From a virus: a stretch of 56,534 nucleotides of DNA. Shown here in pieces: positions 3,521-56,534 of the stretch. The stretch lies in IMG/VR virus record IMGVR_UViG_3300007276_000059, positions 1 to 56,534 of that record; one strand, written 5' to 3'. Position 1 is the stretch's first letter. Each line of letters opens with the position of its first letter. The position numbers were made by a program, and so were the translations under genes. The notes beneath the pieces are model-generated. The model saw only the letters and a program-made list of their open reading frames with translations, was not told the DNA's origin and did no database searches.

Positions 3521-3544
3521 ACTAAACTTAGATAACTAAATAAC

Positions 3545-3604: not shown

Positions 3605-4183
3605 ATGTCTATAAATGTAACAAAATTCTTGGTAGCTACTGATCTCGCTACTATTGATCTCGACGTAAATGTAACTGTTGGCCAAACTGTCACAGAGATA
3701 TTACTATGGACAGATTCCACATACAAAGATCCTTCTTCATCAGTTGACTTATCTGCTTTATTAGCAGGAGCAAGTGAAGTAGAAAGTATTTCAATTACAG
3801 CAGCAGACGCTGGACTTTCATTATTCACTGGAATATACTTTCTTCAGATCACTACAAGTGAACCTGAAGTATTAATGACAGCAACATTCAACCTTACACA
3901 ATATTATGTAGTCCAAGCACAACTTGTAGCAAATATAGATTTGTCTTGTCTTGCTTGTAATGGAAATTTCCAAAACGCATTATTATTTGACCTGTATTTA
4001 GAAGCAACAAAGAATGCTCTTATACTAGGTAGATTTCAAGATGCAATTACAAACCTTAACAACTTAATAATTACTATCGAGACTTCTGATTGTGATGCTT
4101 GTGATGACATAGAAGCTGTCGTTTCAACAGCAGGTAATATAGTTTCAGTAGGAGTTATTGATTGTGTATTAGCCGCAGTATAA
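3605..4183 (+). CDS. Beta-rich virion-associated protein (putative fibre/tail accessory)
   Basis: A 192-residue acidic protein, mostly beta by composition (VNVTVGQTVTEILLW, TGIYFLQIT), ending in a helical region with a small Cys cluster (LSCLACNG and later SDCDACDDIE, two CxxC pairs). The CxxC pairs could bind metal or form disulfides. Its stop codon overlaps the ATG of the next gene (TAATG), so translation is probably coupled to the cadherin-like protein. The pattern of an N-terminal strand domain with a C-terminal CxAC/CDAC helical hairpin recalls tail-fibre accessory proteins of Bacteroidota phages. Function is otherwise unknown. Confidence 0.65.
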   Translation: MSINVTKFLVATDLATIDLDVNVTVGQTVTEILLWTDSTYKDPSSSVDLSALLAGASEVESISITAADAGLSLFTGIYFLQITTSEPEVLMTATFNLTQYYVVQAQLVANIDLSCLACNGNFQNALLFDLYLEATKNALILGRFQDAITNLNNLIITIETSDCDACDDIEAVVSTAGNIVSVGVIDCVLAAV

Positions 4184-52902: not shown

Positions 52903-54132
52903 TTATCTCCATGTTATAAATTTATCATTAAAATTATTCATTGATTTCTTAAAATAGACTACATCCTGAGTATCCTGAACTACAAGTAAATGCATTTCTG
53001 GAAACTCATGTCTTAAGCATCTACCTAACATTTGAAAGAAAGAACCAATACCACTATCTAATTGTGTGATAATACCTCTTTCTATATTCGTTAGATTAAT
53101 GCCTTCTCTTAGCATCTTGACTGCAAATAGCTCATTACACACCTCGTCGTTAAAGCAATCAATTAATCCTTGATTAACTTCATTCTTATTCTTTGAGTGT
53201 ACTGCACTGTCTGCACCAAGTTCCTTAACTTGCTTTATTGATCCAGTGAAACAAATAAATCTTGAATCATCTAGTCTGAATTCCTTAATCAAATCTTTCA
53301 CATTCTGTGTTTTAACTTCAGCTATGAATTTCTTCCTGCCTGAAGCTATGTTTAGGAACTTATTCCTACATCCTGTTCTGATCGGGTAAGGAATTTCCGT
53401 ATCCTCAGACAACCCTTGATAATACACCATTTGTTTTGTTAATGCATCATAGTGCTCCTGTTCAGTACCTTGACAAACTATACCTACATCTTTAGGATAA
53501 TTCTTCATGGTCATGAACAGGTCTTTATGCTTACAATACTTAGTGATCTTACCTTTGGATTTTCTTGCTGTATATTCCCATAACTTCCCTCTAACTATAT
53601 CCTTATTCAAATGTATTCTATGCACAACCAATTTAGGTTCTGGTAATAGTTTTAATTCGAATGCTTTATTCAATGAAATTATATAATAATGTATTCTGTT
53701 TGCACATAATTCATTTATTAGTAATTTCTTCTCATTTGGAATAGTAGCAGATAGAAATATAATCTTCGTGCCCTTTTGCAATATTTTTCTCAAGGCTTTA
53801 ATCCTCAATTGTGTCAATGCATGGCACTCATCAAGTATTACGAAATCAGCTTTCTTTGTTTGATTCTTCAAGGATGCATATAAGACTGTTTTCATTGATT
53901 TACCAACTTTAGTCTTCTTATGCTTCTTGATATCTAAAAGCCAATTCTTTTTATGTGTACTCTCTTTACAGATTAAATATCCTGTTGCTTCAGGGTTGTC
54001 TTTAAGAATGTCATCTACAATCTTAATAGCTCCTAGTGTCTTTCCAGTACCAGTAGCCCATTCTAAGCATAAAAACCTATGTTTCTTACTTAATTGAACA
54101 GCTTTAGATTGTATCCTATTCTTAGGATGCAT
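52903..54132 (-). CDS. SF2 DNA helicase (DEAD/H, SNF2-like)
   Basis: A 409-residue protein with Walker A at 26-32 (ATGTGKT), DECH at 101-104 (VILDECHAL), motif III SAT at 128-130, and in the second domain motifs LREGINLTNIE and QMLGRCLRHEF. This is the full SF2 set. Such helicases are a stable part of crAss-like replication modules, acting in fork restart or recombination. Its start overlaps the stop of the gene before it by one base. Confident on family, less on job. Confidence 0.9.
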   Translation of the reverse strand: MHPKNRIQSKAVQLSKKHRFLCLEWATGTGKTLGAIKIVDDILKDNPEATGYLICKESTHKKNWLLDIKKHKKTKVGKSMKTVLYASLKNQTKKADFVILDECHALTQLRIKALRKILQKGTKIIFLSATIPNEKKLLINELCANRIHYYIISLNKAFELKLLPEPKLVVHRIHLNKDIVRGKLWEYTARKSKGKITKYCKHKDLFMTMKNYPKDVGIVCQGTEQEHYDALTKQMVYYQGLSEDTEIPYPIRTGCRNKFLNIASGRKKFIAEVKTQNVKDLIKEFRLDDSRFICFTGSIKQVKELGADSAVHSKNKNEVNQGLIDCFNDEVCNELFAVKMLREGINLTNIERGIITQLDSGIGSFFQMLGRCLRHEFPEMHLLVVQDTQDVVYFKKSMNNFNDKFITWR

Positions 54133-54972: not shown

Positions 54973-55207
54973 AGACTGATCTGTATTGTAATTCCATCTT
55001 AAGAACTGGAATAATGCTCTTTCTATTCTCTAATTCACCTCGTTCAAACTTAGCAATAGCATTCTTTATATGGTTTGTATCCATAACTGCTATTGACTGT
55101 GATTTACCATTAGATGATGTCCAAATAAGTCCTCTATCGTTAATAATATGATTTTGGATTATTTCAGACTTGAGATCCCATCTTGGTGGTCTTCTTTTCC
55201 TTAACAT
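54899..55207 (-). CDS. Small phage protein of the 'MDTNHIKNAI' type
   Basis: A 102-residue protein. The frame GLIWTSSNGKSQSIAVMDTNHIKNAIAKF, then ENRKSIIPVLKMELQYR, is one I know from many phage proteins of unknown role that carry an x-W-x-T/S-x-x-G...M-D/N-T-x-H-x-x-N signature. An internal ATG (MDTNH, 55084) exists, but the upstream part belongs to the pattern, so I keep 55207. It overlaps the wHTH gene by 44 bp and the next gene by 74 bp. Confidence 0.65.
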   Translation of the reverse strand: MLRKRRPPRWDLKSEIIQNHIINDRGLIWTSSNGKSQSIAVMDTNHIKNAIAKFERGELENRKSIIPVLKMELQYRSVCEKKETNEQQGSREVNDSVYGLQV

Positions 55208-55601
55208 CCGTTTTCAATTTAATTAACATTAATTTACTTATTGTATCCCAACCTCTTTTATCCATACCTTCTATTAAATAGTCGATACATTTGTTGAGGT
55301 TTGCTGGTTTCTTTTTTTTAGGTTTAACAGGTAAATTCCCTGTCATATCCCATTGTATTACATTTCTACCTGTAATACTACAATTAGTTGTTCCTATCTC
55401 TGTAACTACTCCTTGATCTCTTAGTACTGATAATTGTTTCCATCCGCCTCTAATACTAAATCTCTTATTCATGTACTGTTCTAACTCTCCTGCTGTACAG
55501 GGAGCTTTTGATACCATTGATTCTAAAACCTGTAATCTTCTTTCAGACAACAAACCTTCTCTTTTTATTTGATGATAACAATCTATTGATGTTTGTCTCA
55601 T
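55164..55601 (-). CDS. Winged-helix DNA-binding protein (putative regulator)
   Basis: A 145-residue protein with a winged-helix frame: LLSERRLQVLESMVSKAPCTAGELEQYM, then RGGWKQLSVLRDQGVVTEIGTTN with the wing, and a basic C-terminal part (VKPKKKKPANLNK). The LSxRRxxVL...PxTAxEL pattern is common in phage MarR-like helix-turn-helix proteins. It is the first substantial gene after the structured RNA segment, so it could control early transcription. It overlaps the next gene. Confidence 0.75.
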   Translation of the reverse strand: MRQTSIDCYHQIKREGLLSERRLQVLESMVSKAPCTAGELEQYMNKRFSIRGGWKQLSVLRDQGVVTEIGTTNCSITGRNVIQWDMTGNLPVKPKKKKPANLNKCIDYLIEGMDKRGWDTISKLMLIKLKTDVKEKKTTKMGSQV

Positions 55602-55630
55602 TTTATTTGTTTTTTTGGTTAATGAAAAAT

Positions 55631-55851
55631 AATACCCCTGCAGCCCACTAATGAGAACTAACTACCAGAATTGCCGTTTAACATGCGTATCGACTGCATC
55701 CTACAAGGGTATTCGTTGATTCGAACCACTCTATTCTTAATATTACATCTAAGCTCACTATTCTGTTTATACCCAACTGAATGGTTTCAGGAACGACATT
55801 ACACAGAATGTGAGGCTTCCTGATTTCTACCTCAATAGCTTTGGCTTAGAT
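55631..55851 (-). ncRNA. Candidate structured RNA / long 5' leader ahead of the wHTH gene
   Basis: No gene fits 55602-55857. Read on the minus strand it has two domains. Domain 1 (55851-55747): closing stem ATCTAAGC/GCTTAGAT (8 bp), inner CTATT/AATAG, then TCAGGAA/TTCCTGA (7 bp) enclosing ACATT/AATGT; an alternative TGAGG/CCTCA stem competes. Domain 2 (55713-55631): closing stem AATACCC/GGGTATT (7 bp) then TGCAG/CTGCA (5 bp). These nested perfect repeats and higher GC than the surroundings suggest a folded RNA. It does not fit tRNA, and I could not match it to RNase P, tmRNA or group I/II introns. It ends about 30 nt before the wHTH ATG, so it may be a regulatory leader or a separate RNA. Confidence 0.6.
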
Positions 55852-55857
55852 AGATTA

Positions 55858-55995
55858 TTACTCAACAGATATTTCTACATCTATATCATCATAAGTCCAG
55901 TTGAAGACTACTGCTCCATTGTAAAATGATAATGCATCTTGTAATTGATCTACATCATGCTGAGTTATTTCTATTTTAATTTTCTTTTTTGCCAT
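55858..55995 (-). CDS. 45-residue small protein
   Basis: Frame from ATG 55995 to TAA 55858-55860: MAKKKIKIEITQHDVDQLQD... then AVVFNWTYDDIDVEISVE. Basic start, one helix, acidic beta end. Codon use and composition look like the neighbours. It lies directly upstream of the structured RNA segment, whose first stem begins 7 bases past the stop. Function unknown. Confidence 0.6.
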   Translation of the reverse strand: MAKKKIKIEITQHDVDQLQDALSFYNGAVVFNWTYDDIDVEISVE

Positions 55996-56009
55996 AATTT
56001 AATTATTTC

Positions 56010-56150
56010 TTACTTAACTTCTAAGTAATAAAGTGTAAATTCCTTATCTTGACCATAAAATTTAAATTGAATTTCCTATATTTCATCTACACAAATTAAT
56101 GCACATTGTTTACAGTAGCTGTCTGATGGATATAAGTAAGTGTTGATTAT
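56010..56150 (-). pseudogene. Coding-like stretch with one in-frame amber codon
   Basis: After the stop of the 65-residue gene, the same frame continues for 47 codons with protein-like content (INTYLYPSDSYCKQCALICV-DEI, amber at 56076-56078, then EIQFKFYGQDKEFTLYYLEV-K) to TAA at 56010-56012. It includes a CxxC pair. There is no ATG or GTG start. It is either a decayed small gene, an amber-readthrough gene with an ATA/ATC-type start, or chance. The rest of 55996-56150 holds nothing else that I can see. Confidence 0.35.
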
Positions 56151-56348
56151 TTATGTAATTAACCATTTTTGGTTATACTTTATAACCTTTCTAGTCTCTT
56201 TAACTAAATCTAAATCTGTACATCTCATGTGTTTTGGCTTTTCGAATTCTGCCATTGTTGCACGTATTAAATACTCCTGTTCTTTATCGTTCAAAGTATG
56301 CCCGCAGAATAAATTTAAACTACGAGCTCCTCTTTTAGTTTTTACCAT
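56151..56348 (-). CDS. Small basic protein, unknown
   Basis: A 65-residue basic protein (MVKTKRGARSLNLFCGHTLNDKEQEYLIRATMAEF...). It has the look of small phage early proteins; FCGHTL gives single Cys and His only. ATG is 4 bp after the stop of the gene upstream. Function unknown. Confidence 0.6.
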   Translation of the reverse strand: MVKTKRGARSLNLFCGHTLNDKEQEYLIRATMAEFEKPKHMRCTDLDLVKETRKVIKYNQKWLIT

Positions 56349-56351
56349 AAC

Positions 56352-56534
56352 TTACTTTAATCTATAAGTGAACTTTCCTTTATCATCTGTATATGTCTTA
56401 GTCAAATCTAGGCTACATGGTACTTCAAGAACCTCTCTCATAGTAGGTGTATTAGTACTCAGACTACCACCTTCTATTATTAACTCACAACCATTTTTAA
56501 CTATTATTGTTGACTCAGCAGAAACATCGCCTTC
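56352..56534 (-). CDS. C-terminal part of an unknown protein (cut by right edge)
   Basis: The frame is open from the window edge to TAA at 56352-56354, giving 60 residues: EGDVSAESTIIVKNGCELII then EGGSLSTNTPTMREVLEV and a tail TYTDDKGKFTYRLK. The content is beta-rich. The start lies outside the window. No family is recognised. Confidence 0.55.
   Translation of the reverse strand, partial: EGDVSAESTIIVKNGCELIIEGGSLSTNTPTMREVLEVPCSLDLTKTYTDDKGKFTYRLK

Follow-up and report, generated by a model that had tools for sequence, protein, structure and literature searches.

Position and folding of a non-coding stretch in a crAss-like virus genome

In the region that heads the early block of a 56.5-kb IMG/VR virus record of crAss-like kind (IMGVR_UViG_3300007276_000059), a stretch rich in inverted repeats raises the question of whether a structured RNA is encoded there and, if so, of which class and with which role. 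The window, i.e., the whole 56,534 nucleotides analyzed, carries a helicase gene (52903–54132) whose product is about 27–34% identical to those of crAss-like phages in a phage collection and 48–80% identical to those of 37 IMG/VR contigs (25 at first), the helicase relatives. The first-pass annotation had described positions 55631–55851 of the minus strand as a candidate structured RNA of two domains that it could not place in a known class. The features of this region are as follows; domain 2 is termed RNA X.

55858–55995, minus strand: ORF of 45 amino acids upstream of the flagged stretch, assigned to no family
55747–55851, minus strand: domain 1, with the stems 55851–55844/55754–55747, 55823–55817/55793–55787 and 55809–55803/55766–55760
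55731–55744, minus strand: A/G-rich leader AAUAUUAAGAAUAG, similar 5′ of RNA X in the crAss-like copies
55627–55730, minus strand: RNA X (domain 2), about 104 nt, matched over its full length by the covariance models
55715–55729, minus strand: P1, T-arm-like hairpin, 55729–55726 paired with 55718–55715, 7-nt loop UUCGAAU (55725–55719)
55701–55713, minus strand: 5′ strand of P2, 13 bp with 55643–55631, conserved GUAG/CUGC end with a U-G pair
55682–55700, minus strand: P3 hairpin, 55699–55696 paired with 55686–55683
55644–55655, minus strand: P4, small hairpin CUCA-UUAG-UGGG predicted by RNAalifold, recalling a tRNA D-arm
55631–55643, minus strand: 3′ strand of P2, covarying with the 5′ strand
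55164–55601, minus strand: wHTH-like gene (phrog_1123) downstream of RNA X, no Pfam match above the cut-off

The described location between the 45-residue ORF (55995–55858) and the wHTH ORF (55601–55164) was borne out, as was the lack of a coding frame, with 5, 10 and 5 stop codons in the minus frames. The G + C content is indeed raised (0.403, compared to 0.341 for the contig and 0.33 and 0.28 for the flanks). Both closing stems were found as described: the first pairs 55851–55844 with 55754–55747 by 8 Watson-Crick bp, and the second (55713–55707 with 55637–55631) is the outer part (7 bp) of a helix that comprises 13 bp and extends to 55701/55643. The six nested stems are all present, but some of them are mutually exclusive, since UCAGGAA/UUCCUGA crosses AUUCUGU/ACAGAAU in domain 1.

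The folding energy of the whole stretch (233 nt) is unremarkable when compared to shuffled sequences (z = −1.07, 26 of 200 shuffles as good), whereas domain 1 alone folds far better than its shuffles (z = −3.28, 0 of 200 as good). Watson-Crick stems of 7 bp or more number three in domain 1, compared to 0.24 on average in its dinucleotide shuffles (P = 0.002). Two of these (55823–55817/55793–55787 and 55809–55803/55766–55760) cross each other and are therefore alternatives or form a pseudoknot. The energy of domain 2 alone is ordinary (z = −0.58, 48 of 200 shuffles as good). As it is this domain that is supported by covariation (see below), the energy alone is misleading here.

The assumption of a single two-domain RNA is not supported, as domain 2 is present without domain 1 in the contigs L061, L054, L051, L069 and L072. 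Because L061 retains RNA X together with the wHTH gene and carries a lipoprotein-like ORF in place of domain 1, RNA X and not the two-domain RNA is regarded as the unit of inheritance. For domain 1 no homologue was found, and a search for sequence similarity with the block preceding RNA X in L009 and L036 gave none. Domain 1 is probably a separate element, namely another structured RNA module.

Identification of further copies of RNA X

Nine distinct copies of RNA X were collected, all of them on metagenomic contigs: the window copy, five copies in crAss-like or related contigs (L009, L036, L039, L054, L061) and three in tRNA arrays (L051, L069, L072). This family size is a lower bound. In a blastn search of the stretch against the helicase relatives, only domain 2 was matched, initially in L009 and then in L036 and L039; the L039 copy recurs identically in L038 and L046. 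Pattern scans yielded L051, L054 and L061, followed by L069 and L072, while two further patterns gave, beyond the known copies, false matches only. A covariance model (R1) built from the window, L036, L054 and L061 was searched against 739 kb and matched the other five copies over their full length (L009, E = 6.4e-13; L069, 5.0e-11; L072, 5.1e-7; L051, 1.0e-6; L039, 6.7e-6).

The closest relative of the window copy is that of L061. Between the two, RNA X together with about 15 nt of leader shows 78.5% identity, which exceeds the 66–75% of the other nucleotide matches shared by these contigs. The label of the MAG that holds L061 is not taken as a host claim, because the contig itself has crAss-like phage genes; among 295 prokaryote genomes of the phylum of this MAG, no further match was obtained. 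In the model search, RNA X was absent from most helicase-bearing relatives, and blastn detected it in no named phage: what matched there were real tRNAs or short segments of unrelated records.

Several groups of pattern matches were rejected. In L028, L062–L068 and L078–L082 there is no matching RNA, and several of these matches lie inside protein genes. Those in L047, L052, L053, L055 and L057–L060 are tRNA-like T-arms without RNA X, and L070, L071 and L073–L076 match in the T-arm only, with model scores of 16–25 bits (E = 0.007–0.9). Of the latter, L070 may be a divergent member: at 1676–1820, within the tRNA array of a 249-kb phage, it carries an X-like T-arm AGTGGTTCGAATCCACAAA as well as a GGTGAC + GGGAAAGACC hairpin resembling the 3′ end of the subtype found in L069.

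Conserved structure of RNA X

The family members are about 100–125 nt long and contain four helices. In 5′ to 3′ order, AGUGG-UUCGANU-CCAC (P1) is followed by AAA, the 5′ strand of P2 ending in GUAG, P3, a single-stranded stretch (approximately CRAAACAGGURGU), P4 and the 3′ strand of P2 starting with CUGC. The P3 loop contains UCGA in all nine copies, and the P4 loop is UUGG in most of them. In the tRNA-array copies, a tRNA 3′ end takes the position of the AAUAUUAAGAAUAG-like leader. L039, L051, L069 and L072 form a subtype whose P2 differs and includes an internal loop, and which carries an extra 3′ hairpin, GCUCG-GAAAGA-CGAGC.

In a plain MAFFT alignment of the window, L036, L054 and L061, 96.6% of the cells in P1, P2 and P3 are paired, compared to 83.2% in shuffles and 34–50% in controls with slid partners. 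Two-sided changes occur in 10 of the 22 pairs, one P2 pair reading U-A, G-C, C-G and A-U across the four copies, and the covariation score of 0.545 (0.224 in shuffles) was reached by none of 500 shuffles. RNAalifold, to which the structure was not supplied, recovered P1, P2 and P3 and added the P4 hairpin. In the alignment of all nine sequences, which was fitted to the covariance model and hence leans towards it, 95.5% of the cells are paired and 48 two-sided cells stand against 13.4 expected (0 of 500).

Two-sided changes affect 6 of the 13 P2 pairs among four sequences and 8 among nine, as well as all five P3 pairs across the nine. P4 is weaker, with 86% of the cells paired and two pairs with two-sided changes among the nine sequences. 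P1 (GUGG-UUCGANU-CCAC) never varies compensatorily: GUGG/CCAC is perfect in eight copies, and the window copy has one G-A mismatch. This invariance is partly a result of selection, because the retrieval patterns require P1 and loop letters and spell the T-arm for five copies (L051, L054, L061, L069, L072); the P2 and P3 helices were not selected for by these patterns. G-U pairs are found at several positions in some copies, and one P2 pair is U-G in seven of nine. These conserved pairs point to an RNA on the minus strand and not to a DNA element.

Covariation among homologues, which had been proposed as a check, is thus present for domain 2 (P2 and P3), the copies share no open reading frame, and the proposed Rfam search returned nothing on the flagged stretch. 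RNA X is a conserved structured RNA family without a match in Rfam 15, and for domain 2 the earlier description as an RNA of no known class holds.

Comparison with known RNA classes

At gathering as well as relaxed thresholds, no Rfam model matched RNA X. This includes GOLLD and ROOL; among the cis-regulatory classes, only a chance match to SAM-SAH (12.3 bits) was obtained, which lies outside RNA X. Neither ARAGORN nor RF00005 called a tRNA on RNA X in the window, L051, L054, L061, L069 or L072, although neighbouring tRNAs were called by ARAGORN and Rfam models. RNA X has a T-arm with a UUCRANY loop, perfect in eight of nine copies and with one mismatch in the window, but lacks the acceptor stem of a tRNA: the strand following the T-arm pairs downstream (P2), with covariation. 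No tmRNA was called at RNA X by RF00023 or ARAGORN; tmRNA genes were called elsewhere, in L027 (865–1302), which is related by its helicase, and in L054 (6363–6699), which is related by RNA X. The bacterial Y RNA-like YrlA mimics tRNA by a T-arm within a rearranged tRNA order, a likeness to RNA X if the latter is read as a tRNA mimic. T-loops occur also in RNAs that do not mimic tRNAs. The YrlA model (RF02553) did not match RNA X, and its sub-threshold matches (22.9–24.1 bits, cut-off 69) lie on tRNA genes.

By analogy, RNA X appears to resemble most the orphan phage RNAs near tRNA genes, i.e., T4 rnaC and rnaD, GOLLD and ROOL. The rnaC and rnaD RNAs (species 1 and 2 stable RNAs, 119–139 nt, function unknown) are small phage RNAs that adjoin tRNA genes (PMC3014915, PMC12685909), as does RNA X in several contigs. 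Like RNA X, rnaC carries a T-arm-like hairpin, which however lies at the 3′ end in tRNA order, whereas that of RNA X lies at the 5′ end. As homologues these RNAs were rejected, since the RNA X models give no match in the T4 region. ROOL and GOLLD likewise are structured, have no known function and occur in phages and prophages, in many cases close to tRNA islands (PMC12286853), but they are several hundred nucleotides long and very ornate, compared to about 100–125 nt and four helices in RNA X.

Other non-coding blocks and side observations

Long non-coding stretches also head the early block in L005 (1–870), L016 (610–1510), L022 (370–1480) and L014 (290–470). They share conserved blocks, e.g., ACTAGTCAATAAAAGCAGT..., GATGCCTCTAGCACC... 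and CCTAGCCCTTTGTGG..., with 71–100% identity among phages with strongly differing helicases. These blocks have no Rfam match and are probably further new RNA families. A second block (CACGAGTAG...GTGAAAACACGGATGA...CATATAGAGC) was found in L009 (1042–1195), L012 (4470–4633), L013 (1–126), L036 (7830–7960) and L039 (8266–8418), directly upstream of RNA X in L009 and L036; RNAalifold indicates two-sided changes in one of its hairpins. A third block (GGTGCA..., GGGGAGTTAATA..., CCACGAAYACCTCC) is located in L009 (1299–1513), where it lies downstream of RNA X, and in L012 (2337–2549). Beside RNA X, tRNA-like genes of 96–200 nt with extra sequence in the anticodon/variable region are present in L051 (880–1310) and L069 (3409–3522).

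In the window, an ORF on the minus strand (56348–56011) contains an in-frame TAA and TAG, is otherwise one frame and holds the motif KQCALICVDEI; in L014, a protein of 75 aa (2647–2874) contains this motif intact. A decayed gene, a sequencing error or recoding are the alternatives here.

Genomic context and possible role of RNA X

The surroundings of RNA X differ between the contigs. In L051, RNA X begins at 1315, between a tRNA that ends at 1310 and one that starts at 1440; in L069, it begins at 3527, between a tRNA that ends at about 3522 and one that starts at 3651. In both, it thus occupies the gap between two tRNA genes with spacers of about 4 nt. These tRNA genes are complete and nothing is interrupted, for which reason an intron was rejected. 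In L072, a tRNA-like 3′ end that was not called by ARAGORN directly precedes RNA X, and in L054 a tmRNA and a tRNA lie just upstream. The copies in the window, L036 and L061 are without a tRNA neighbour.

Judging from sequence and position, it appears rather likely that RNA X belongs to a new phage ncRNA family whose members act in trans as tRNA mimics via the T-arm and are freed by tRNA processing in arrays. A trans-acting RNA with a tRNA-binding partner is favoured by the mimicked T-arm and by the way in which RNA X fits exactly between tRNA genes. In the tRNA-array phages, the 5′ and 3′ cleavages freeing the neighbouring tRNAs would release RNA X as a stable RNA, and in crAss-like phages it would be made from the early transcript or from its own start. 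The T-arm would then be offered to a host tRNA-binding factor, as a decoy or a recruiter; candidates are an enzyme that processes or modifies tRNAs, or a defence directed at them. The mimicry has to be read with the broken T-stem pair (G-A) of the window copy in mind, and the trans role with the wHTH start codon close behind RNA X in the window, where a local role is possible.

A more far-reaching version, in which RNA X is exchanged among crAss-like and unrelated phages and interferes with a host factor directed at tRNA, be it for processing, for modification or for a defence that cuts tRNAs, is speculative and rather unlikely as a whole. The UCGA of the T-loop and of the P3 loop are both invariant and self-complementary, and might kiss within or between RNA X molecules, building the active form. 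RNA X would then be one of several unrelated structured RNAs in an RNA island heading the early genes.

That RNA X, together with domain 1, is a cis-acting leader controlling the wHTH gene by structural switching or blocked ribosome access is unlikely. In the window, about 25 nt separate the end of RNA X from the wHTH start codon; in L061, RNA X is again located upstream of this gene, and in L036 an ORF begins shortly after it. The leader fits poorly, however, because there is no constant downstream gene: RNA X is followed by the wHTH gene (window), an 80-aa ORF and then the wHTH gene (L061), a 187-aa ORF (L036), another conserved non-coding block (L009, with a further one upstream), a small ORF (L054) or tRNA genes (L051, L069). 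In addition, no terminator-like site was found in 55500–56534.

An inert spacer or processing element guiding an RNase in tRNA operons, which would agree with the exact fit in L051 and L069, is quite improbable, as three crAss-like copies (window, L036, L061) stand apart from tRNAs and a spacer has no need of conserved single-stranded segments (P3 loop, GGURGU..AG). The T-arm consensus, the D-arm-like UUGG hairpin and the tRNA neighbours could also indicate the remnant of a tRNA gene, i.e., a decayed or permuted tRNA or a piece of a tmRNA. This has little probability: the tRNA and tmRNA models pass over RNA X yet call its neighbours, the helix after the T-arm (P2) closes on its downstream side, and an anticodon loop of 7 nt is lacking. 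Moreover, 95% pairing is kept despite sequence change, which argues for selection and not decay. A promoter whose DNA hairpins the virion RNA polymerase would recognize, in the manner of phage N4, is very improbable even though RNA X lies at the head of the early block in the window and the virion RNA polymerase of crAss-like phages transcribes early genes (PMC7886860). RNA X is found in tRNA arrays as well, including that of a contig (L069) whose terminase and portal genes are ordinary (Terminase_3 and Phage_portal); it keeps G-U pairs suited to RNA, and most helicase-bearing relatives are without it.

Among the three roles suggested by the first-pass annotation, the trans-acting phage RNA therefore fits best, and the regulatory leader and the polymerase recognition region fit poorly. 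Ever since T4 rnaC and rnaD, small RNAs encoded next to phage tRNA genes have been on record; to our knowledge, there are only a few of them, with poor conservation and without an explanation. RNA X is a compact, covariation-supported RNA common to unrelated phages that is testable as a transcript of about 100 nt, and its T-arm hints at where a partner might be sought. Judging from the relatives, several further structured RNAs outside the known classes may exist in crAss-like phages.
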